A stretch of DNA of 64,000 bases from Actinomyces sp. AC-20-1 (GTDB taxonomy: Bacteria > Actinomycetota > Actinomycetes > Actinomycetales > Actinomycetaceae), in contig NZ_JACJVC010000007.1 in NCBI RefSeq assembly GCF_023369555.1, positions 80,497 to 144,496 of the forward strand. The letters run 5' to 3'. Position numbers and translations under genes: made by a program. This document shows positions 13,406-46,842 of this stretch, piece by piece. Position 1 is the stretch's first letter. Each line of letters begins with the position of its first letter. Below the pieces are notes generated by a model that worked only from the letters and a program-made list of their open reading frames with translations, did not search any database and was not told the origin of the DNA.

Positions 13406-14008
13406 TCAGCGCCTTCTTGGGGTGCGCAGGCGTACCAGGTCGGCGAAGGACTGCGTCCAGGTGGCCAGGAACCTCTGCGTGTCGGGGCGGGTGAGGTTGC
13501 CCTCCTCGTCGAGGAAGGAGCCCGTGGAGCCGAGGAAGGCCTCGGGCTGGCCCGTCATCGGCATGTCGAAGTAGCTCAGGGCCAGGCGCAGGTTCTTGTG
13601 CGCGCTGTAACCGCCCATGCGCCCGACCGAGTGGCTGACGATGCCCGCGGGCAGGTCGAGCCACACGCTCTCGCCGTTGGGCTTGGAGCCGACGTCGACG
13701 GCGTTCTTGAGGCAGGCGGGCACGGTGTGGTTGTTCTCCGGGGTGACGAACAGGACGCCGTTGGCACCCGCCAGGGCCCAGCGGAAACGCTGGTACTGCT
13801 CAGGAAGGGGCTTGTCCTCGACCGCCGGGTCGTCGTAGTCGGCGTCGTAGAGCGGCAGGCCGCCGATCTCGACGACCTCGGTCTCGAAGCCCGGGGGCAG
13901 CATGTCCGCCACCACGCGGGCGATGGCCCGTGAGCGCGAGCGGCGTCGCAGACTGCCGAGGATGACGGCGACGTGCAGGGGACGGTCGTAGGTCGGTGCG
14001 CTCGTCAT
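13406..14008 (-). CDS. NADPH-dependent FMN reductase family flavoprotein
   Basis: A 200-residue flavodoxin-fold oxidoreductase. The N-terminal phosphate loop LGSLRRRSRSRAIA binds the FMN phosphate and TPENNHTVPACLKNAVD matches the family PEYNxxxPxxLKNAxD isoalloxazine loop. Its ATG is 1 nt after the nrdF stop, and nrdI lies just upstream, so it is probably cotranscribed with them. A role as electron donor that reduces the NrdI flavodoxin, or supplies reduced flavin for radical generation, is an inference from this context. General quinone or FMN reductase activity is the alternative. Confidence 0.85.
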   Translation of the reverse strand: MTSAPTYDRPLHVAVILGSLRRRSRSRAIARVVADMLPPGFETEVVEIGGLPLYDADYDDPAVEDKPLPEQYQRFRWALAGANGVLFVTPENNHTVPACLKNAVDVGSKPNGESVWLDLPAGIVSHSVGRMGGYSAHKNLRLALSYFDMPMTGQPEAFLGSTGSFLDEEGNLTRPDTQRFLATWTQSFADLVRLRTPRRR

Positions 14009-14009
14009 G

Positions 14010-15047
14010 TCACAGCTCCCAGTCGTCGTCGTCGGTCTCCTCGGTCCGCCCGATGACGTAGGAGGAGCCGGAGCCGGAGAAGAAGTCGTGGTTCTCGTCC
14101 GCGCTGGGGGACAGGGCGGCCAGGACAGCGGGGCTGACCTGGGTCTGCGAGGAGTCGAAGGGGGCGTCGTAGCCCAGGTTCATGAGGGCCTTGTTGGCGT
14201 TGTAGCGCACGAAGGCGGCGACGTCGTCCATGAGGCCGAAGGGCTCGTAGAGCTGGCCGGAGTAGTCGAGCTCGAGCTGGTAGAGCTCATGCATGAGGCC
14301 GTGGGTGAAGTCGTGCATCTGTGCGACCCGGTGGGGCTTGGACTCGAGGCTGCGCTGGTACTTGTAGCCGGAGTAGTAGCCGTGCACCGCCTTGTCCCGC
14401 AGGATGAGGCGGACCATGTCGGCGGTGTTGGTCAGCGTCGCGTGCACCGACAGGTACAGGGGCAGGTAGAAGCCGGCGTAGAGCAGCAGGGAGGACAGCA
14501 GGGTCGAGGAGGCCTTGCGCTTGAGGGGGTCGTCGCCCTCGTAGTGGACGAGGACCTTCTTGGCGCGCTCCTGCAGGACGTCGTTGCCGACGGCCCACCT
14601 GTAGGCGTCGTCGATCTCCTGGCTCGAGCACAGGGTGGAGAACACCGAGGAGTAGGAGCGGGCGTGGATGGCCTGCATGAAGGCGATGTTCGTGTACACG
14701 GCCTCCTCGTGCTCGGTCTGGGCGTCCTGGATCTGGCTGACCTCGCCGACGCTGGCCTGGACCGTGTCGAGGAGGGTCAGGCCGGTGAACACGCGCATGA
14801 CGAGGGTCCGCCACTCGGGGTCGAGCTCGCGCCAGGAGGGTTGGTCGTTGGACAGGGGGACCTTCTCGGGCAGCCAGAAGTTGGCGGTGAGGCGGTTCCA
14901 CACCTCGAGGTCCTTGGGGTCCTGCAGGAGGTTCCAGTTGACGGGGCGGATGCGGGCCGTGGGGTCGCGGTGGAAGCCGCGCGGTGTGACGGACCAGGCG
15001 GTGTAGGGCAGGTGCTCGCTGCTGCTCGGGACAGGGGCTGTCGGCAT
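14010..15047 (-). CDS. nrdF: Ribonucleotide reductase radical subunit, class Ie-like (metal-free, QSK variant) NrdF
   Basis: Ferritin-fold small subunit that holds the radical for dNTP synthesis with NrdE. The 345-residue protein keeps Asp94 (LTLLDTVQ), His128 and Tyr132 (AIHARSYSS) and His222 (AVHGYY), but three carboxylate metal ligands are replaced: Gln125 (FMQAIH), Ser185 (TLLSSLLLYAGF) and Lys219 (LRDKAVHG). I checked the codons: CAG, TCC and AAG. This Q/S/K pattern is the published hallmark of class Ie (R2e), which works without metal using a DOPA radical made from the tyrosine with NrdI. ATG at 15047 has AGGAG upstream. nrdE is not in this window. It lies in the cluster nrdI-nrdF-FMN reductase. 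Confidence 0.93.
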   Translation of the reverse strand: MPTAPVPSSSEHLPYTAWSVTPRGFHRDPTARIRPVNWNLLQDPKDLEVWNRLTANFWLPEKVPLSNDQPSWRELDPEWRTLVMRVFTGLTLLDTVQASVGEVSQIQDAQTEHEEAVYTNIAFMQAIHARSYSSVFSTLCSSQEIDDAYRWAVGNDVLQERAKKVLVHYEGDDPLKRKASSTLLSSLLLYAGFYLPLYLSVHATLTNTADMVRLILRDKAVHGYYSGYKYQRSLESKPHRVAQMHDFTHGLMHELYQLELDYSGQLYEPFGLMDDVAAFVRYNANKALMNLGYDAPFDSSQTQVSPAVLAALSPSADENHDFFSGSGSSYVIGRTEETDDDDWEL

Positions 15048-15085: not shown

Positions 15086-15553
15086 TCAGGCGGCGAGGGG
15101 GCTCGTCGCCCAGAAGCGCTCGAGCCCCTGGCGGACCGTGGCGACATCGTCGTCCGTCCCCAGCAGCTCGAAGCGGTACATGTCGGGGACGTGGCACTTG
15201 CCGGCGATGATGGGGCCGGCCGCGCAGTAGGCGGTGCCGAAGTTGGTGTTGCCCGACGAGATGACGCCGCGCAGGAGACGGCGGTTGGCCGGGATGTTGA
15301 GGAACTGCGCGACCTGGCGCGGCAGGGCCTTGGAGAGGTCGCCGCCGCCGTAGGTGGGCACGAGGATGACGTAGGGGCGGCTGACCTGGATCATCCCCTC
15401 AGTGCGGGGGCGCAGCGGGATGCGGGTGGCGGGCCGTCCCACGCGCTGGACGAAGCGGTGGGTGTTCTGTGAGGCGCTGGAGAAGTAGACGAGGTCGTGG
15501 GACTCGTCCTCGGGCAGGACGGTGACGGCCGACGGCGTGGCGGGGCTGGGCAT
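15086..15553 (-). CDS. nrdI: NrdI flavodoxin-like RNR activator
   Basis: A 155-residue FMN protein that supplies superoxide or peroxide to assemble the radical in NrdF; for class Ie it is needed to convert the tyrosine to DOPA. Signatures: [15 protein letters not shown] (FMN phosphate loop), VPTYGGG, and [19 protein letters not shown]. The ATG at 15553 gives normal length; a purine-rich AAGGAG lies about 10 nt upstream, rather far. It precedes nrdF by 38 bp on the same strand. Tandem NrdR boxes lie in its upstream region. Confidence 0.93.
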
Positions 15554-15601
15554 GGGAGCACGACTCCTTCCGGGCGGTGCTGAGGACCTTCTGGCGCCCA
15601 G

Positions 15602-15649
15602 ACACAACATCTGGTGGGGTGCTGACCTGTTGGGCGCAAGATCTAGTAG
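15602..15649 (-). promoter_or_regulatory. Tandem NrdR boxes upstream of nrdI
   Basis: Two related palindromic 16-mers, ACACAACATCTGGTGG (15602-15617) and GCGCAAGATCTAGTAG (15634-15649), start 32 bp apart, the three-turn spacing known for NrdR box pairs. Against the ACACwATATaTwGTGT consensus they match about 12 and 10 positions. The second box overlaps a plausible nrdI -10 (TAGATC on the minus strand) with TTGGCG 16 bp upstream. NrdR would repress when dATP is high. Confidence 0.7.
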
Positions 15650-15735
15650 TAGCAGGTTTGCCGCCAATGCTCGATGAGGCGAAGAGTGAAGTACGTCTAC
15701 ACGAACTTTTGAGAATGTGATCGCGTCATGAGCCA

Positions 15736-15749
15736 GCACTGATCAGTGC
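15736..15749. repeat. 14-bp perfect palindrome upstream of nrdI
   Basis: GCACTGATCAGTGC lies between the mntR stop and the nrdI promoter region. A loop-free palindrome of this length suits a protein binding site; no regulator is assigned. Confidence 0.4.
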
Positions 15750-15762
15750 CGGGCCGCTGGGC

Positions 15763-16479
15763 TCAGGGAGCCCGGGACGGCTCCGGCGAGATCAGCACGC
15801 GCTCGCAGTCCTCACGGCTCAGCGTCAGCCGCCGCCCGTCCTCGGCACCACCGTCGTCATCGGTGGCGCTGACGACGCTGACGACGGCGACGTCCTCGAA
15901 GGGGGAGGAGGGCTCCACCACGACCAGGGTCCCTAGCCCGACCCCCGCCTCGCGCAGGCGGCGCAGAAGCCCGGCGTCGCGGTCGTCGACCCGGCGCACG
16001 CGCAGGCGCTCGCCCGCACCCGCGTCCGCGAGCGGAGCCAGGCCCAGGTGCTCGACCGCGCCGTCCGCCGAGGGGATCGGGTCGCCGTGAGGGTCGAGGC
16101 GGGGGAAGCCGAGCGCGGCGTCGATGCGCTCGACCATGAGCGCGGACACCGTGTGCTCGATCGCGTCGGCCTCGGCGTGCACCTCGTCCCAGGCGTAGCC
16201 CAGCGTCCTCACGAGGAAGAGCTCGAGCAGCCGGTGGCGCCTGACGAGCGCGAGCGCCTGCGCCACCCCCTGCTCGGTCAGGGTGACGGAGCCGTAGGGG
16301 GCGCGCTCGATGAGCCCGGCCGCCTGCAGCCGCCTGAGCGCGTCGGAGACCGTCGAGGGGCGCACCCCGGTGCGGGCGGCGAGGTCGCCCGGCGCAGTGG
16401 GGGACCCGGACCACTCCTGCAGGGTCCACAGGGTCTTGAGGTACTCCTCGTTGCTCGCGCTCAGGCCGCCGCGTGCCAC
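15763..16479 (-). CDS. MntR-like DtxR-family metal-dependent repressor
   Basis: A 238-residue regulator: N-terminal winged helix (about 1-75, PSTVSDALRRLQAAGLI recognition helix), dimerization and metal domain (76-145), and a C-terminal SH3-like FeoA domain (from about 165). At the two positions that set metal choice it has Glu12 (NEEYL), where DtxR has Met10 and Bacillus MntR has Asp8, and Asp105 (HAEADAIEH), where DtxR has Cys102 and MntR Glu99; His82, Glu108 and His109 are conserved. Acidic residues there favour Mn2+ over Fe2+ sensing. GTG start, 9 nt after purU. A candidate operator is the palindrome before the metal ABC operon. Confidence 0.88.
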   Translation of the reverse strand: MARGGLSASNEEYLKTLWTLQEWSGSPTAPGDLAARTGVRPSTVSDALRRLQAAGLIERAPYGSVTLTEQGVAQALALVRRHRLLELFLVRTLGYAWDEVHAEADAIEHTVSALMVERIDAALGFPRLDPHGDPIPSADGAVEHLGLAPLADAGAGERLRVRRVDDRDAGLLRRLREAGVGLGTLVVVEPSSPFEDVAVVSVVSATDDDGGAEDGRRLTLSREDCERVLISPEPSRAP

Positions 16480-17609: not shown

Positions 17610-17732
17610 TCAGCCCTGGCGGGCCTTGAGGTGGGGGTTCTTCTTGTTGATGACGTAGGTGTGCCCGCGGCGTCGGACCACCTTCGAGCCGGGCTGGCGG
17701 GCGAGCGAGCGGATCGAGGCTCGGACCTTCAT
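17610..17732 (-). CDS. rpmJ: 50S ribosomal protein L36, zinc-free paralogue
   Basis: A 40-residue basic protein ([17 protein letters not shown]..., ending [12 protein letters not shown]). It has no cysteine, so it lacks the zinc ribbon of ordinary L36; such C-minus paralogues replace the zinc form when zinc is scarce. It is the last gene of a five-gene minus-strand set of C-minus ribosomal proteins, 53 bp after rpmE2. AGGAGG-type sequence lies before the ATG. Confidence 0.93.
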
Positions 17733-17785
17733 GTGCTCCTCCTGGGGTGCGGGGGTAGTGGGGTGTGGTCGCGCCTGCGGCGGTC

Positions 17786-18049
17786 TCAGCGCGTGCGGCG
17801 GCCGTAGCGGCGCTCGAAGCGCTCGACCCGTCCGGCCGTGTCGAGGACGCGGCCCCTGCCGGTCCAGAACGGGTGCGAGGCGCTGGAGACGTCGACGTCG
17901 ACGACGGGGTAGGTGTGCCCGTCCTCCCACTCGATGGTCTGCCCCGGCGGGACGCGCGGAGCGAGGGTCGAGCGGGTGAGGAAGGCGAAGTCGGCGGCCT
18001 TGTCGCGGAAGACGACGGGGCTGTACTCGGGGTGGATGCCGGGGCGCAT
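17786..18049 (-). CDS. rpmE2: 50S ribosomal protein L31 type B (zinc-free)
   Basis: An 87-residue L31 of the long, cysteine-free type [17 protein letters not shown] at the N-terminus and [13 protein letters not shown] in the middle are diagnostic. Type B L31 substitutes for zinc-binding L31 under zinc limitation, releasing the metal. Its ATG is preceded by GGAGC. It is in the operon between rpsN (87 bp upstream) and rpmJ. Confidence 0.95.
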
Positions 18050-18136
18050 GGTGCTCCTACGGGTCGTGGCTGTGCTCTGTGGCGTTCAGCGGCGTTCGGT
18101 GGCGTTCGGTGGTGGGGCGGCGGTGCTGGGCGGCCG

Positions 18137-18442
18137 TCACCAGGACGACTTGGTGATGCCGGGCAGCTCGCCGCGCAGGACCATCTGGCGGAAGCGCACC
18201 CGGGAGGTGCCTGTGACGGCGAGGTAGCCGCGCGGGCGGCCGTCGACGACATCCCGGTTGCGCAGGCGGGTGGGGGAGGCGTCGCGGGGCAGGGCGTGCA
18301 GCGCGCGCATGGCGGCGGCGCGCTCCTCGGCGCTCAGGTGCGGGCTGGTGCTGGCGCGCTTGAGCTCGGCCCTGCGCTCGGCGTAGCGGGCGACGACCTC
18401 GCGGCGCTGGGCGTCGCGGGCGATCTTGGACCTCTTGGCCAT
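18137..18442 (-). CDS. rpsN: 30S ribosomal protein S14, zinc-free long form
   Basis: A 101-residue S14 without the CxxC-CxxC zinc motif of the ~61-residue form. Signatures are [21 protein letters not shown] and the C-terminal [21 protein letters not shown]. The start codon shares one base with the rpmG stop (TGATG), so the pair is translationally coupled. It is part of the Zur-type C-minus set. Confidence 0.96.
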
Positions 18443-18612
18443 CAGCGGGACTCCTTGAACTCGACGTGGCGGCGCACGACGGGGTCGAACTTGCGCAGGA
18501 CGAGGCGGTTGGGCGTGTTGCGCCGGTTCTTGCGGGTGACGTAGGTGTAGCCGGTGCCGGCGGTGGAGACCATCTTGATGATGGGGCGCAGGTCCTTGGT
18601 GCGGGCCGCCAT
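18442..18612 (-). CDS. rpmG: 50S ribosomal protein L33, zinc-free form
   Basis: A 56-residue L33 ([21 protein letters not shown]...) with no cysteine, hence zinc-free. The conserved [21 protein letters not shown] segment is intact. It overlaps rpmB by one base at its start and rpsN by one base at its end (TGATG junctions), giving a tightly coupled run of three ribosomal genes. Confidence 0.95.
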
Positions 18613-18848
18613 CACAGACGCTCCCCCCGGGCGAGCATGCGGGCCACGGCGACGTCGATGCCGATCTTGTCGATGGTCCTGATCCCCTTGGCGGACACCG
18701 TCAGGCGCACGGTGCGGCCCAGGGAGGGCACCCAGTAGCGCTTGGTCTGGAGGTTGGGGTCCCAGCGGCGGCTCGTGCGCCGGTGGGAGCGGGAGACGCT
18801 CTTGCCGAAGACCGACTTGGCTCCTGTGACTTGGCAGTAGGTGGTCAT
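18612..18848 (-). CDS. rpmB: 50S ribosomal protein L28, zinc-free form
   Basis: A 78-residue L28: [25 protein letters not shown], then the [25 protein letters not shown] core. Only Cys5 remains of the zinc ligands, so it is the C-minus type. It is the first gene of the operon; the ATG at 18848 is 6 nt after a -10 element, with a Zur-type palindrome in the promoter. The alternative start upstream (18884) would lie inside that palindrome. Confidence 0.96.
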
Positions 18849-18854
18849 GGCGGC

Positions 18855-18884
18855 ACAATAGAGAATGATTCTCATCATTATCAA
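18855..18884 (-). promoter_or_regulatory. rpmB operon promoter (leaderless)
   Basis: On the minus strand, TTGATA (18884-18879), an 18-bp spacer and TATTGT (18860-18855), then 6 nt to the rpmB ATG. Both hexamers are good matches to the housekeeping consensus. Confidence 0.7.
18864..18879. promoter_or_regulatory. Zur-type operator between rpmB and the COG0523-like gene
   Basis: AATGATTCTCATCATT is a perfect inverted repeat (AATGAT, 4 nt, ATCATT) resembling actinobacterial Zur boxes. It fills the -35/-10 spacer of the rpmB promoter and lies 19-34 bp before the divergent gene, so one site could repress both when zinc is plentiful. Confidence 0.72.
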
Positions 18885-18897
18885 GTTGGAGCCAGGT

Positions 18898-20067
18898 ATG
18901 CCCCGTCACGCCCTCGTCCTCGTCAGCACCGTCGAGCCCCTGCTGCGCGACCTCGCCGCCCTCACCCTCGGGCCCGAGGCCCCCGCCCTCATCCAGGTCG
19001 ACGTCCTCGCCTGCGCCACCGCCTGCGACGACCCCGCCGACAACGGCGCCCCCGCCGTCCGCCTCCAGGGCGAGGCCGGCGTCCTCGACGTCCCCATGGA
19101 GCGCGAGTGCTGGACCTGCTCCGTGCGCGAGACCCTCCTGAGCGTCGCCGCCGAGAGGGCCGACGGCGACGGCTGGTCGGGCGGGGCCGATGACGCGGGC
19201 GGGTCCGACGACGACGGCCGGGAGGACACCGCTGCCGCCGTCCCCGAGGGCACCACCGTCATCCTCCTGCCTCCCGGCCTCGAGCTCGTCCACCTCGTGC
19301 CCGCCCTGGCGACCGCGCTCGCCGAGCACGTGCCCGGGGCCCGTCTCGCCGGCGTCGTCCACGTCATCGACGCCTCCACCGCCGCCTCCACGCTCCTCGA
19401 GCACCACCCGCTCAGCGAGGTCCTGGCCCATCTCGCCCCCGGCGACGAGCGCTGCAGCGGGGAGGTCCACATGAACGCCCTCGGCTACGCCGACCTCGTC
19501 CTGCGCCTGGGCGAGGACCCCGTCGGCTCCGACCTCATCGAGCACCTGCGCCCCCACGACACCCTCCTCCTGCCGGGGCTCGACAGCCCGGTCCTGGCCG
19601 AGGCCCTCGCCGTCGACCACGACGCCCAGGCCGCCCTGGCCCGCGTCCACCCCGCCACCACCCGGGCCTGGGGCGGCCCCGACGACCACGGCGTGCGCAC
19701 CCTCGACCTGTCCTCCGACCTGCCCTTCCACCCCGGGCGGCTGCGCGAGCTCGTCGGGGACCTCGCCGGCAGGGGACTGCTCGCCCGCGGCTGCTTCTGG
19801 GTCCCCACGCGCCCCGGACGCGTCTGCGCCTGGGAGGTCGCCGGAGGCGTCGTCTCCGTGGGCGACGCCGGCACCTGGGGTCAGGCGGGCGACGGCACCG
19901 CCCGCAGCCACCTCGTCGTCACCGGCCTCGCCGACGACGCCGAGTGCGAGGCCGTGAGCCGGGCCTTCTCCCGCATCCTCCTGCGCTCCGACGAGCTCGT
20001 CGAGGCTCTCGCCTGGCCGCGCTACCCCGACGGGCTCGAGGACTGGCTCGGCGTCGCCGAGGCCTGA
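18898..20067 (+). CDS. COG0523/CobW-like protein lacking the P-loop (Mrf/Rv0106-type candidate)
   Basis: A 389-residue protein related to the CobW/COG0523 metallochaperone GTPases. [11 protein letters not shown] (Cys71, Cys74) occupies the place of the family CxCC motif, and [25 protein letters not shown] followed by AWEVAGG matches the CobW C-terminal domain. However, no Walker A (GxxxxGK[ST]) exists anywhere, so GTP binding is doubtful. An acidic Gly/Asp insert lies near 90-115. The divergent placement next to C-minus rpmB matches mycobacterial Rv0106/Mrf, a factor tied to ribosome hibernation under zinc starvation (from memory). ATG 18898 follows GGAG; the ATG at 18865 lies inside the operator. 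Role here is inferred. Confidence 0.75.
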
Positions 20068-42863: not shown

Positions 42864-42892
42864 TTGAATGTTTCGGGTCACCGAAATATTCT
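42864..42892 (+). promoter_or_regulatory. Promoter of the metal ABC importer
   Basis: TTGAAT (42864-42869), 17 bp, TATTCT (42887-42892), then 7 nt to the ATG at 42900. Both hexamers are strong for this genome; the transcript would be nearly leaderless. Confidence 0.75.
42866..42891. promoter_or_regulatory. Palindromic operator (MntR/DtxR-type) in the metal importer promoter
   Basis: TTTCGGGTCACCGAAA (42871-42886) is a perfect 6-4-6 palindrome that exactly fills the end of the -35/-10 spacer. Symmetry continues outward (GAAT...ATTC, 42866-42891) with one mismatched pair. Binding would block RNA polymerase. The MntR-like repressor at 15763 is the best candidate in the window. Confidence 0.72.
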
Positions 42893-42899
42893 CAGCCGC

Positions 42900-44108
42900 A
42901 TGAGAACAGTTATCAGGTCATCCCGGCGCGCCGCCCTCGCGCTGGCCGCCCTCACCCTCGCCGCCCCGACCCTCGCCGCCTGTGGCTCCTCCCAGACCGG
43001 CACCGACGCCAACGTCAACCCCGAGGCCACCACCATCCACGCCGTCGCCTCCACCACCCAGGTCTGCGACTACGTCACACAGCTCGCCTCCGGCGGCGAC
43101 GACCTGTCCTTCTCCCGCACCGGCGCCGACGGCACCACCGCCGAGCTCGGTGCCGACCCCGCCACCGCCCCCGCGCGCCTGACCCTCACCTGCCTCCTGG
43201 CCCCCAACGCCTCCGCCCACGAGCACGAGATGACCGCCGCCCAGTCCGCGGCCCTCGCGGAGGCCGACCTCTTCCTCGTCAACGGCGTCGACCTCGAGCA
43301 CTTCCTCGACGACGCGGTCTCCTCCACCGGCTTCAAGGGCACCATGGTCGTCACCTCCGGGGTCCTCACCGCCGACGACGTCGACAACCCCGGCGCGAGC
43401 AAGGAGGCCGAGGCCACGCTGCCCTACACCATCGACCGCGGCACCCAGGCCGTCGAAGTCGCCCCCTGGCCCTTCGCCCCCGAGCCGGGCGAGGAGGCCG
43501 AGTTCCGCTACGACCCCCACGTGTGGACCAACCCCCGCAACGCCGCCATCCAGGTCGCCAACATCGGCGCCGCCCTGACCGCTGTCGCCCCCGAGGCCTC
43601 AACCACGATCAACAGCCACGTCAAGGCCTACGCCGACCTCCTCGCCTCCCTCGACCAGTGGGCCGCGCAGAGCCTGGACACCGTGCCCGCCGAGCACCGC
43701 GTCCTGTTCACCAGCCACGACGCCTTCGGCTACCTCTCCAAGGCCTACGGCATCCGCTTCGAGGGCGCGGCCATGAGCGACTTCAACGCCCAGCAGGACG
43801 CCACCGCCCAGAAGATCCAGGAGACGGCCGACGCCATCACCGCCTCGGGCGCCGTGGCGATCTTCGCCGAGAACTCCAACAACCCCGAGTCCGTCGAGAA
43901 GGTCGCGGCCCTCGCCGGCGTGCGCGCCGTCATCGGCGACGAGGCCCTGTACGGCGACTCCCTGGGCGAGCCCGGCTCCGATGGTGAGACCTACACCGGC
44001 TCGATCCTGCACAACGTCACCAACCTCACCACCGCCTGGGGAGGTACCGTCTCCGAGGTGCCCGCCGAGCTGTCCCAGTGGGCCCCCACCGACGTCGTCA
44101 AGCCCTGA
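42900..44108 (+). CDS. Metal (Mn/Zn) ABC transporter substrate-binding lipoprotein
   Basis: Cluster A-I binding protein that captures Mn2+ or Zn2+ outside the cell. The precursor starts MRTVIRSSRRAALALAALTL and has the lipobox LAAC. Likely ligands are a His of NASAHEHEM, His in DPHVWTNPRN, His in TSHDAFGYLSKAYG and Asp in IGDEALYGDSL; the third position is His as in TroA, not Glu as in PsaA, and there is no long His-rich loop, so metal choice is open. The ATG at 42900 (402 residues) is preferred to TTG 42864, which lies inside the promoter. First of a four-gene operon. Confidence 0.9.
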   Translation: MRTVIRSSRRAALALAALTLAAPTLAACGSSQTGTDANVNPEATTIHAVASTTQVCDYVTQLASGGDDLSFSRTGADGTTAELGADPATAPARLTLTCLLAPNASAHEHEMTAAQSAALAEADLFLVNGVDLEHFLDDAVSSTGFKGTMVVTSGVLTADDVDNPGASKEAEATLPYTIDRGTQAVEVAPWPFAPEPGEEAEFRYDPHVWTNPRNAAIQVANIGAALTAVAPEASTTINSHVKAYADLLASLDQWAAQSLDTVPAEHRVLFTSHDAFGYLSKAYGIRFEGAAMSDFNAQQDATAQKIQETADAITASGAVAIFAENSNNPESVEKVAALAGVRAVIGDEALYGDSLGEPGSDGETYTGSILHNVTNLTTAWGGTVSEVPAELSQWAPTDVVKP

Positions 44109-44126: not shown

Positions 44127-45011
44127 ATGACCACCGCTGAGCAGCCGCACGCAGCCGCGAGGCACGAGCCCGGCACCACCGCCGTCGAGCTCACGGACCT
44201 CGCCCTGGCCTACGGGCGCGACCCCGTCCTCACCGGCGTCACCGGCACGCTGCGTGCGGGCCAGGCGCTGGCGCTCGTCGGCCCCAACGGCTCAGGCAAG
44301 ACCACGCTGCTGCGTGCGCTGCTCGGCACGGTCCGCGTCGTCCACGGCTCCGCCCGCGTCAACGGCCAGGCTCCCGGCCGCGCCCCGGCCGGGAGCATCG
44401 GCTACGTCCCGCAGGTCGCCGACCTCGACCCGACCTTCCCCGTCACGGCCCTCGACGTCGTCGTCATGGGTACCATCTCCGCCCTGGGACCGCTGCGGCG
44501 TCCCGGGCGCAGGGAGCGCGAGCGCTCCCGCCGGGCCCTGGAGGCCGTCGGGCTCTCCCACGTCGCCGGACGGCGCTTCGGAGAGCTCTCCGGGGGCCAG
44601 CAGCAGCGCGTCCTGCTCGCCCGCTGCCTGGCCTCGCGCCCCCGCCTCGTCCTGCTCGACGAGCCCTTCAACGGCCTCGACCAGCCCAACCGGGACGCCC
44701 TGCTGCGCATCCTGGCCGGCCTGAAGTCCGACGGCGTCGCCGTCGTCGTCTCCACCCACGACCTCGTCCTGGCCCGCGAGGTCTGCGAGCAGGTCGCCCT
44801 CCTGGCGGGGCGCCAGGTCGCCTTCGGGCCCCGTGAGGAGGTCCTCGTCCCCGCGCTCGTCGAGCAGGCCTACGGCGCCGGCCGCGAGCACGCCGCCCGG
44901 CTCCTCGGCCTGCCCGTCACCCTGCCGACCGTGACGACGGCGGGCCCCGCCCCCTCCCGCGAGGGCGGGGCCGCCGCCCCCGCCGGCCCCCTGCCCGTGA
45001 CCGCCGTATGA
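44127..45011 (+). CDS. Metal ABC transporter ATP-binding protein
   Basis: A 294-residue ATPase of the MntB/ZnuC type: Walker A GPNGSGKTT, Q-loop YVPQVADLDPTFPVTALDVV (typical of Mn/Zn importers), signature LSGGQQQRVLLARC, Walker B LVLLDEPFNGLD and STHD. The C-terminal ~35 residues are Ala/Gly/Pro-rich and probably disordered. ATG follows a GGAGAG site; the stop overlaps the next ATG (ATGA). Confidence 0.94.
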   Translation: MTTAEQPHAAARHEPGTTAVELTDLALAYGRDPVLTGVTGTLRAGQALALVGPNGSGKTTLLRALLGTVRVVHGSARVNGQAPGRAPAGSIGYVPQVADLDPTFPVTALDVVVMGTISALGPLRRPGRRERERSRRALEAVGLSHVAGRRFGELSGGQQQRVLLARCLASRPRLVLLDEPFNGLDQPNRDALLRILAGLKSDGVAVVVSTHDLVLAREVCEQVALLAGRQVAFGPREEVLVPALVEQAYGAGREHAARLLGLPVTLPTVTTAGPAPSREGGAAAPAGPLPVTAV

Positions 45012-45985
45012 GCACCGCCGACGCCCTCACGCACCTCGTGGCCGCAGCGGTCGAGGCGCTGCGCACGACCCTGTCCGGCGTCCCCGGCATCGCCCCCCTG
45101 GCCACGGCCCCCTTCCTGTTCCGGCCCCTCGTCCTGCTCGTCGTCCTGGGCTGCGTGTGCGCCCTGGTGGGCACGCTCGTCAACCTGCGCCGCGCCGAGT
45201 TCCACGCCGAGGCCCTCGTCCACGCCGTCTTCCCCGGCATCGTCGTCGGCGCCGTCACCGCGGGGACGGACATGATCGTGCCCGCCGGTGCCGTCGCCGG
45301 GGCGCTCGCCGCCGCCGCCCTGACCTGGGTGGACCACCACTCGCGGCGCGACGCCTCCGAGGCCGGGACCGCCGTCGTCCTCACCGGGTTCTTCTCCGTC
45401 GGCATGGTCGTCCTGCTCGCCAGCGGGGACATGTCCGGCCAGCTCGAGGCCCTCATGTTCGGCAGGCTGCTCGAGGTCACCGACCTGCGCCTGGCCCAGG
45501 CCCTCCTCGTCAGTGCCCTGGCGCTGCTCCTGGTGTGCCTGACCTGGAAGGAGCAGGTCGCCACCGCCTTCGACCCGCTCGGGGCCAGGGCCTCAGGGCT
45601 GCGGGTGCTCGCCCTCGACCTCGTCCTCAACGCCGCGGTGGCGGCCGTCGTCGTCGCGGCCTCCACCGCCGTCGGCACCCTCCTCGTCATCGGCATGCTC
45701 ACCCTGCCCGGCACCACCGGCCGCGTGCTCGCCCGCACCGTGCCCGGCATGGTCGCCACCGCCGTCGTCGTCGGGGTGGGTGGCGGCTGGCTCGGGCTGC
45801 TCCTGGCCGTCTCGCCCTCCCCTCGGCCGGTCTCGCCCCAGGCGGCCGTCATCATGGTCATGGCCCTGGCGCTCGTCGCCGCGGTCGGCGGGGTGCGCCT
45901 GGTCGGCGCGGCCCGCGCGCGCTCAGGCGCGGGGCGTGGGCGCCGCCGACAGGAGGCACTGAGCGCGGGGCGGGGGGCGCCGTGA
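45008..45985 (+). CDS. Metal ABC transporter permease 1
   Basis: A 325-residue ABC-3 family permease with about eight membrane helices. The family segment NLRRAEFHAEALVHAVFPGIVVG (counterpart of SHAxxPG) is near residue 60 and DPLGARASGL is in the cytoplasmic loop. It overlaps both neighbours by 4 nt. Having two permease genes resembles mntABCD/troABCD operons. Confidence 0.92.
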   Translation: MSTADALTHLVAAAVEALRTTLSGVPGIAPLATAPFLFRPLVLLVVLGCVCALVGTLVNLRRAEFHAEALVHAVFPGIVVGAVTAGTDMIVPAGAVAGALAAAALTWVDHHSRRDASEAGTAVVLTGFFSVGMVVLLASGDMSGQLEALMFGRLLEVTDLRLAQALLVSALALLLVCLTWKEQVATAFDPLGARASGLRVLALDLVLNAAVAAVVVAASTAVGTLLVIGMLTLPGTTGRVLARTVPGMVATAVVVGVGGGWLGLLLAVSPSPRPVSPQAAVIMVMALALVAAVGGVRLVGAARARSGAGRGRRRQEALSAGRGAP

Positions 45986-46842
45986 GCACCACCGTCTCCT
46001 GGCAGCTGCTTGAGCTGCCCGTCACCGTCGCCGTCCTCGTGGGCCTGCTGGCGGGCGCCGTCGGCGCCATCGCCCTCATCGAGCGCCGCATCTTCCTGGC
46101 CGAGTCCCTCACGCACTCGACCTTCCCCGGGGCGGTGGCCGGCGTGGTCACCGCCGCCTGGGCCGTCCCGGCGATCTGGGGGGAGCGGGCGGGCTACGGC
46201 GCCCTGTCCGTGGCCGTCCTCGTGGGAGCGGCCCTCATGTGCCTGCCCATGCTCGCCCTGGCCCGCTGGTTCCAGAGCGTGCCCGGCGTCTCGGCGCAGG
46301 CCGCCGCCGGCGCGGTGCTGTCCATCGGCTTCGCCCTGGGCTACCTGCTGAGCACCTGGTTCGCCCCGCTGCCGCTCAAGGTGGACGGTTTCCTCGCCGG
46401 CTCGCTGCTCAACGTCAAGACGACCGACGCCTGGACGGCCGGTGTGTGCCTGGCCCTCACCGCGCTCCTGCTGCTCACGATGGGTCCGCGCCTGGCCTTC
46501 CACGCCTTCGACCCCGTGGGGCACCGGGCGTCGGGCCTGAGCGCGCGCGCCGCGGAGGCCACGGTCATGGGGCTCGTGTGCGTCACCATCGCCGTGCTCG
46601 TGCCCTCGCTCGGCACGATCCTGCCCATCGCGCTCATCGCCGCCCCCGCGGCCGCGGTCGCCCCCTGGGTGCGCAGCGTGCGTGCCCTCGTGCTCGGCTC
46701 GGCGCTCGTGGGGGCCTCCTGCGCCCTGGCGGGCCTCGCCGTCGCGGTGGCGGGCGAGCTGAGCGCCGGAGGGTGCATCGGGGTCCTGTGCGCCCTGGTC
46801 TGGGCGGGCTCCGTCGGCACCCGCCGGGCGCTGCGGGCCTGA
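45982..46842 (+). CDS. Metal ABC transporter permease 2
   Basis: A 286-residue ABC-3 permease paralogous to the preceding one: ERRIFLAESLTHSTFPGAVAG near the N-terminus and AFDPVGHRASGLSARAAE in the middle. The GTG start overlaps the first permease stop. The operon ends in a strong hairpin. Confidence 0.92.
   Translation: MSTTVSWQLLELPVTVAVLVGLLAGAVGAIALIERRIFLAESLTHSTFPGAVAGVVTAAWAVPAIWGERAGYGALSVAVLVGAALMCLPMLALARWFQSVPGVSAQAAAGAVLSIGFALGYLLSTWFAPLPLKVDGFLAGSLLNVKTTDAWTAGVCLALTALLLLTMGPRLAFHAFDPVGHRASGLSARAAEATVMGLVCVTIAVLVPSLGTILPIALIAAPAAAVAPWVRSVRALVLGSALVGASCALAGLAVAVAGELSAGGCIGVLCALVWAGSVGTRRALRA

Follow-up and report, generated by a model that had tools for sequence, protein, structure and literature searches.

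The closest described relative of the RNR (ribonucleotide reductase) gene considered here, an nrdF for a predicted metal-free class Ie R2 protein in a 64,000-nucleotide stretch of the Actinomyces sp. AC-20-1 genome (the window), is found in Gardnerella vaginalis. The class Ie R2 of that species (8RAG/8RAH; PMC11846895) has, in our comparison, the same Gln/Ser/Lys (QSK) triad, the same retained Asp, His, His and Tyr, the same clade and an adjoining NrdI. R2 proteins of this kind were already known from 275 sequences in 266 genomes, and 104 cases of nrdI-nrdF without nrdE had been counted, according to that study. This 2025 work had no means of keeping NrdI reduced, its main text names neither MntR nor DtxR, and the passages of open-licence literature that we found report no MntR link of class Ie QSK enzymes. 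Streptococcus pyogenes, which belongs to another phylum, offers a likeness in regulation: in the available passages of a 2021 review (PMC8463856) its metal-free R2 is a backup of the class Ib enzyme and its class Ie RNR is repressed by Fe and Mn, with no reductase or PEPCK (phosphoenolpyruvate carboxykinase) link in the passage concerned. Those passages further report that Bacillus cereus NrdI is reduced with a flavodoxin reductase, which was found by screening and raises the NrdI-dependent cofactor yield, that reconstitution of class Ie enzymes in vitro from purified components had yet to be achieved, that dihydroxyphenylalanine (DOPA) maturation depended on an incompletely known set of parts, and that the conditions of cellular use were not understood (PMC8463856).

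The Actinomyces locus differs from that of G. vaginalis in that nrdI and nrdF are joined by a flavin mononucleotide (FMN) reductase gene and stand behind an mntR-like gene, with a separate class Ib locus in the genome. What is new is this setting of the QSK nrdF, namely the FMN reductase, the MntR-like gene with its operator and the link to a PEPCK paralogue; the QSK triad itself is known. We put at roughly two in three the probability that the window holds a predicted metal-free class Ie R2 operon which is switched on at manganese shortage and drives the only R1 found in the genome, and whose operator also frees a metal importer and the PEPCK paralogue. A drop in Mn2+ would cause an MntR-type repressor to leave the operator, NrdI and NrdF would be made, and the FMN reductase would pass electrons from reduced nicotinamide adenine dinucleotide (phosphate) to NrdI, which in its reduced form would yield with O2 an oxidant turning Tyr132 into DOPA and a radical, the DOPA radical then serving the R1 common to the class Ib enzyme. 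The same operator would release the importer, in the window, and, at another place in the genome, the PEPCK paralogue with its two missing predicted Mn2+ ligands, and the cell would import metal and swap two manganese enzymes for forms predicted to be manganese-free. Whether this extends to an actinobacterial manganese-sparing regulon, in which an MntR-type operator governs the importer, a metal-free RNR with a dedicated ChrR-like NrdI reductase and a manganese-independent, probably Mg2+-only PEPCK, we regard as evenly poised.

The nrdF open reading frame (ORF) encodes 345 amino acids, begins with ATG and has no internal stop. Its codons give D94 (GAC), Q125 (CAG), H128 (CAC), Y132 (TAC), S185 (TCC), K219 (AAG) and H222 (CAC); three of the six metal ligands are replaced, and Asp94, His128, His222 and the radical Tyr132 are kept. 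In an alignment with solved chains, the columns of Q125, S185 and K219 hold Glu in the class Ib chains 9l6o and 8j4x, Q/S/K in 8rag/8rah and V/P/K in 6gp2; the class Ie R2 of S. pyogenes is of the VPK type. The first-pass annotation of this DNA had read the triad and the four retained residues from the letters and proposed such a structure alignment, and both the codons and the aligned columns, where Glu occurs in class Ib only, agree with it. A misplacement of S185 was ruled out, since the residue in the LLES column is the first Ser of LLSS and the Ser of YLPLYLS is a different one. The top solved relatives of the protein are the class Ie QSK chains 8rag/8rah (E about 2e-149).

For comparison, one genome per species was scanned across 84,980 species, and the best 80 of at least 593 matching stretches were used, which with the own locus and a further genome of the genus (L039) gave 82 loci, a repeat Actinomyces bovis locus (L038) being excluded. 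The seven ligand and radical columns read DQHYSKH in 42 of these loci and DEHYEEH in the other 40, and in a tree of the compared NrdF proteins the QSK rows form a single branch (support 100/100) with which the window NrdF groups. QSK loci in the scan include records from Streptomyces, Cellulomonas, Leucobacter and Brevibacterium. The window NrdF is 92% identical to that of A. bovis NCTC11535 in the species scan and, likewise, 92% identical to that of G002, a genome of the same genus; among 49 genomes of the genus a QSK copy, judged by identity (79–100%), is present in three (the own genome, G000, with G002 and G013), all other R2 matches having at most 64%. By its sequence the window NrdF is a new member of the known class Ie QSK group, for which we predict metal-free function. 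The match to 8rag/8rah, the residue set of the 42 loci and the fully supported branch uphold the class assignment that had been made. Decay can be ruled out, as the annotation had said, the ORF being intact, the next gene following one base on and the seven-residue set being common to 42 loci.

The source assembly (2,695,776 bases in 47 contigs) holds two R2 genes, two NrdI and one R1, the R1 family searched being that of classes I and II (class III NrdD was not searched for). The sole R1 found sits in a class Ib nrdH-nrdI-nrdE-nrdF locus. The ligand columns of the NrdF encoded there hold Glu (FMES, MLES, RDEA), so the QSK protein is not the only class I R2 of the genome. The nrdE and second, metal-type nrdF for which the annotation had suggested a search are thus both present, in this class Ib locus. 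With a class Ib nrdHIEF and a single R1 in the genome, the QSK protein is a second R2 and would share the R1 with the class Ib enzyme, and the C-terminal tails of both R2 proteins, which carry SGSGSSYVIG and acidic ends, fit a common R1. The proposal that this bacterium can make deoxynucleoside triphosphates without Mn or Fe is therefore incomplete, as the class Ib system with its Glu ligands is also present and holds the only R1 found.

The genes of the locus follow one another on the minus strand in the order mntR-like gene, operator, nrdI, nrdF, FMN reductase; nrdI starts at an ATG at 15553, preceded by a ribosome site of the GGAG type (as listed, its ORF of 15086-15739 extends further upstream), and a sigma-70 scan found no promoter. 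Neighbour clustering turned up a PF00821 gene divergent from QSK nrdI, the PEPCK paralogue, upstream of which a palindrome like AAGTTTCGTATATACGAACTTT is found in 11 of 11 Actinomyces genomes. A matrix built solely from these 11 promoter sites, with no nrd or importer site used, gave only two outliers over the window, 26.3 at 42867 and 23.5 at 15687, the third best score being 9.7 and the maximum of 100 simulated windows 13.2; a leave-out matrix lacking the own PEPCK site and that of the nearest relative was also applied (Table 1). The own class Ib locus has no operator (best matrix score -1.0). The importer gene has its top matrix site just before it in 30 of 30 loci (scores 15.0–34.7); a close orthologue is present in 33 genus genomes, and the loci come from 30 of these. 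A genome-wide pattern search gave 4, 3 and 4 sites in G000, G002 and G013, those of G000 being the nrdI, importer and PEPCK targets and one weak site; the G000 hit C22:10659 was dropped at a matrix score of 1.7. Across genera, AASTWCG-N6-CGWASTT occurs upstream of nrdI in 8, 13 and 22 of 38 QSK loci at 0, 1 and 2 mismatches, vs. 0, 0 and 1 of 76 class Ib upstream regions and 0.000, 0.000 and 0.009 in shuffled QSK upstreams, with two perfect copies between mntR and nrdI in five Corynebacterium loci; both this pattern and the genome pattern were composed after some sites had been seen.

The regulator gene itself passes the cut-offs of 26 and 27 for PF01325 (54.3 bits) and PF02742 (98.2 bits), and its nearest solved relatives are metal-dependent repressors, 5zr4 first. 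Such an MntR-like gene is present in 14 of 42 QSK loci (13 of 41 without the own) vs. 0 of 40 class Ib loci. Another, core MntR-like protein, 43–51% identical, occurs in all 49 genus genomes, and the operon-linked protein at ≥55% identity is confined to the three QSK genomes, so that in other genomes the PEPCK and importer sites may be served by the core protein rather than by the operon-linked one. No operator was found at the core MntR-like gene loci (L224-L250; best matrix score 4.4).

Several observations count against this picture. The reversed pattern used as a control gave 1, 15 and 1 sites in G000, G002 and G013, so that the pattern is no rarer than chance in G002, and the G013 nrdI site matches a looser pattern only. 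Just 9 of 37 QSK upstreams score higher with the PEPCK matrix than the class Ib maximum of 9.0, chance matrix sites reach about 22 in AT-rich loci, and Streptomyces and most Bifidobacterium QSK loci have no convincing matrix site. The MntR-like gene was not seen in 28 of the 42 QSK loci, nor the FMN reductase in 23 of them (some loci being cut by contig ends). The PEPCK paralogue is also present in the genus without QSK nrdF, in 8 of 46 such genomes, and is widespread outside it.

Table 1 Features of the window, and the PEPCK paralogue of the same genome (G000)
Feature	Position	Strand	Evidence
nrdF, class Ie R2 with Q125/S185/K219	14010..15047	(-)	structure alignment, codon reading, locus comparison, tree
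nrdI, flavodoxin-like activator	15086..15553	(-)	PF07972 142.9 bits, TIGR00333 141.1 bits, both above cut-off
Operator AAAAGTTCGTGTAGACGTACTTCA between regulator gene and nrdI	15687..15710	(-)	matrix 23.5, leave-out 24.1
DtxR/MntR-family regulator, directly upstream of operon	15763..16479	(-)	PF02742, PF01325 and FeoA domains
NADPH-dependent FMN reductase (ChrR-like), candidate NrdI reductase	13406..14008	(-)	PF03358 100.8 bits
Operator AATGTTTCGGGTCACCGAAATATT, ending 9 bases before ATG of importer operon	42867..42890	(+)	matrix 26.3, leave-out 25.1
Metal ATP-binding cassette (ABC) importer, substrate-binding lipoprotein	42900..44108	(+)	PF01297; three-His ligand type
Metal ABC importer, ATPase	44127..45011	(+)	PF00005; best NCBIfam match is Mn-transporter ATPase model, below cut-off
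Metal ABC importer, permease	45008..45985	(+)	PF00950 144.4 bits
Metal ABC importer, second permease (start approximate)	45994..46842	(+)	PF00950 87.6 bits
PEPCK paralogue of own genome	L121:790-2667 = G000:C11:221991-223868		I/Q/S set; 594.6 bits

The FMN reductase, whose ATG lies one base past the nrdF stop, passes the PF03358 cut-off of 24. A homologue was found near QSK nrdF in 19 of 42 loci vs. 0 of 40 near class Ib nrdF (Fisher p 2.9e-7, not corrected for relatedness), the latter count remaining zero at E 0.05, and the loci span nine genera: Actinomyces, Leucobacter, Corynebacterium, Mycetocola, Gulosibacter, Micrococcus, Brevibacterium, Pseudoglutamicibacter and Actinotignum. In 14 loci other than our own it follows nrdF at 26–416 bases, and in Micrococcus at 1.6 kb; two Actinotignum loci have it directly upstream of nrdF, and Pseudoglutamicibacter has it 5 kb upstream. 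On account of the one-base spacing and the 19 of 42 vs. 0 of 40 distribution we propose this ChrR-like enzyme as a candidate NrdI reductase, which differs from the flavodoxin reductase of B. cereus in being ChrR-like and in lying inside a metal-free R2 operon; no link of NrdI with an FMN reductase was found in the open-licence literature. It is quite possible, if short of an even chance, that the enzyme has no NrdI role and instead shares the activities of its relatives, namely the supply of reduced flavin, the reduction of ferric iron or quinones, or detoxification. Its nearest solved chains are chromate reductases, of the chromate/quinone type, about half of the QSK loci lack the gene, and its absence beside class Ib, which also requires NrdI, disfavours a general NrdI reductase; that same absence, together with the recurrence in nine genera and the single base between the genes, nonetheless counts against this alternative.

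In the two Actinotignum loci (L072, L073; 6244-8038), the FMN reductase stands directly upstream of QSK nrdF with no nrdI in the fetched locus; a replacement of NrdI by the reductase was ruled out there, as both genomes have one nrdI elsewhere. In several genera a small conserved ORF (L044:7932-8273, L052:7914-8288) separates QSK nrdF from the FMN reductase or comes right after nrdF; the one copy scanned had no Pfam match. In the window, a carbonic-anhydrase-like gene (PF00484, 12714-13280) follows the FMN reductase, and by tblastn the other loci have no counterpart of it.

The PEPCK paralogue belongs to the same fold family as GTP (guanosine triphosphate)-type PEPCK (PF00821; 4wiu, 5i67), from which it differs by Lys244 to Ile, His264 to Gln and, in the P-loop, Cys288 to Ser (rat numbering). 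Among the 44 rows whose loci had been returned, which are a part of all matches, all 17 paralogue rows, which stand for 16 distinct proteins, have the I/Q/S set, and none of the 27 canonical rows has it, all 27 having K/H/C; 15 other active-site columns are invariant in both, and F525 and F530 vary. We take residues 244, 264 and 311 to be Mn2+ ligands, an assignment not confirmed by the literature looked at. Of 8,000 candidates scored in a protein search, 2,791 were relatives at E ≤ 1e-150, and all of the 120 listed have the I/Q/S set and, where a database name is given, are named PEPCK or pckG. On these residues the paralogue is predicted to form a PEPCK subfamily, widespread in actinobacteria, in which two predicted Mn2+ ligands are missing.

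It was found in 11 of 40 named QSK genomes vs. 0 of 40 class Ib control genomes (12 of 41 vs. 0 of 40 with the own genome included, p 1.9e-4, not corrected for relatedness), any PEPCK match being present in 25 and 28 of these 40, respectively. Within the genus all 3 QSK genomes have it, compared with 8 of the 46 others (p 0.009, likewise uncorrected; two of the QSK genomes are close relatives). In 9 of the 11 named QSK genomes carrying it, the paralogue adjoins the QSK operon, seven times in the fetched loci, in Helcobacillus on one contig with nrdI and in Mycetocola at a contig end with a partial nrdI; no such adjacency is seen in A. bovis, C. halotolerans, G013 or our own genome, which has one paralogue, unlinked to the QSK operon, and a canonical PEPCK. 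We consider it unlikely that the paralogue is no manganese-independent PEPCK and that another substrate or direction explains the changes at the metal site. Such a function would suit its 36–43% identity to canonical PEPCK and its wide occurrence, which goes beyond QSK genomes, and is opposed by the 15 canonical active-site columns that it keeps, by the score of the own copy above the NCBI PEPCK cut-off (594.6 vs. 504 bits) and by Helcobacillus, where it is the sole PEPCK match. In the open-licence literature we found nothing on a manganese-related PEPCK paralogue in Actinobacteria and, among titles and the beginnings of abstracts, no report of a PEPCK within an MntR regulon.

A regulon sensing iron or zinc, with a regulator of that type and a zinc importer, appears improbable, and it has some evidence in its favour. 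The regulator reaches 150.9 bits with the MntR equivalog NF047407, below the cut-off of 350, for which reason we call it MntR-like only. The importer binding protein has a three-His motif in 30 of 30 Actinomyces loci, which is compatible with zinc (TroA and ZnuA have such a motif), its best NCBIfam match is the zinc model AztC, below cut-off, and a zinc-type ribosomal cluster adjoins. Against iron or zinc stand the acidic residues of the regulator at DtxR Met10 and Cys102, which we take to be the positions to compare and which are filled in the fashion of MntR, and an operator unlike the Zur-like palindrome of the zinc cluster. Mn/Zn-type binding-protein genes were found in 8 QSK loci and in no class Ib locus, and 7 of these 8 proteins have a Glu-type motif, the one compared with the PDB being closest to the Mn transporter MntC. 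Class Ib RNR and PEPCK are moreover manganese enzymes. The first-pass annotation had placed the metal-free enzyme in a host niche with metal withholding; the MntR-like gene and an operator common with a metal importer speak for metal shortage, but a host niche is too narrow, given the QSK loci of Streptomyces, Cellulomonas, Leucobacter and Brevibacterium.

Next to the operon, at 17610-20067 on the minus strand, lie ribosomal protein paralogues (L28, L33, S14, L31-like and type B L36) and a divergent GTPase with a CobW_C domain, with a Zur-like palindrome at 18861; the cluster has the same order in A. bovis. It is likely a zinc-sparing set adjoining the manganese one. In Zur-type zinc-free ribosomal paralogues, metal proteins are replaced by metal-independent copies, and the proposed regulon would share this metal-sparing logic, differing in that zinc and the ribosome are concerned there, and predicted manganese and two enzymes here.

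The QSK genes also move between families. Pseudoglutamicibacter and Helcobacillus, which belong to different families, share a QSK nrdIEF block (L064:4029-8250, L066:4008-8250) that has 99.06% identity over 4243 bp and by this identity has been recently transferred, and stretches with the PEPCK paralogue share 93% over 1744 bp between Leucobacter sp. 7(1) and Micrococcus lylae. Such movement fits the patchy presence of the set, and means that the loci are not independent. That the operon is an ordinary accessory class Ie R2 whose regulator, FMN reductase and PEPCK paralogue are co-inherited neighbours with no joint role is doubtful. In favour of this reading, neighbours can ride along with a moving block, the reductase is missing from about half of the QSK loci, and the own genome has its PEPCK paralogue unlinked to the operon. 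Against it, the reductase recurs in nine genera at differing positions (downstream, directly upstream and 5 kb upstream) and the operator is common to the importer and a PEPCK gene far off in the genome.

For class Ie enzymes, the manganese-responsive operon proposed here offers two directly testable candidates, one for the NrdI reductase and one for the signal. A PEPCK subfamily that keeps the other checked catalytic residues while two predicted Mn2+ ligands are absent would be a second manganese-freed enzyme. If the wider regulon exists, the cell would replace key manganese enzymes rather than starve.
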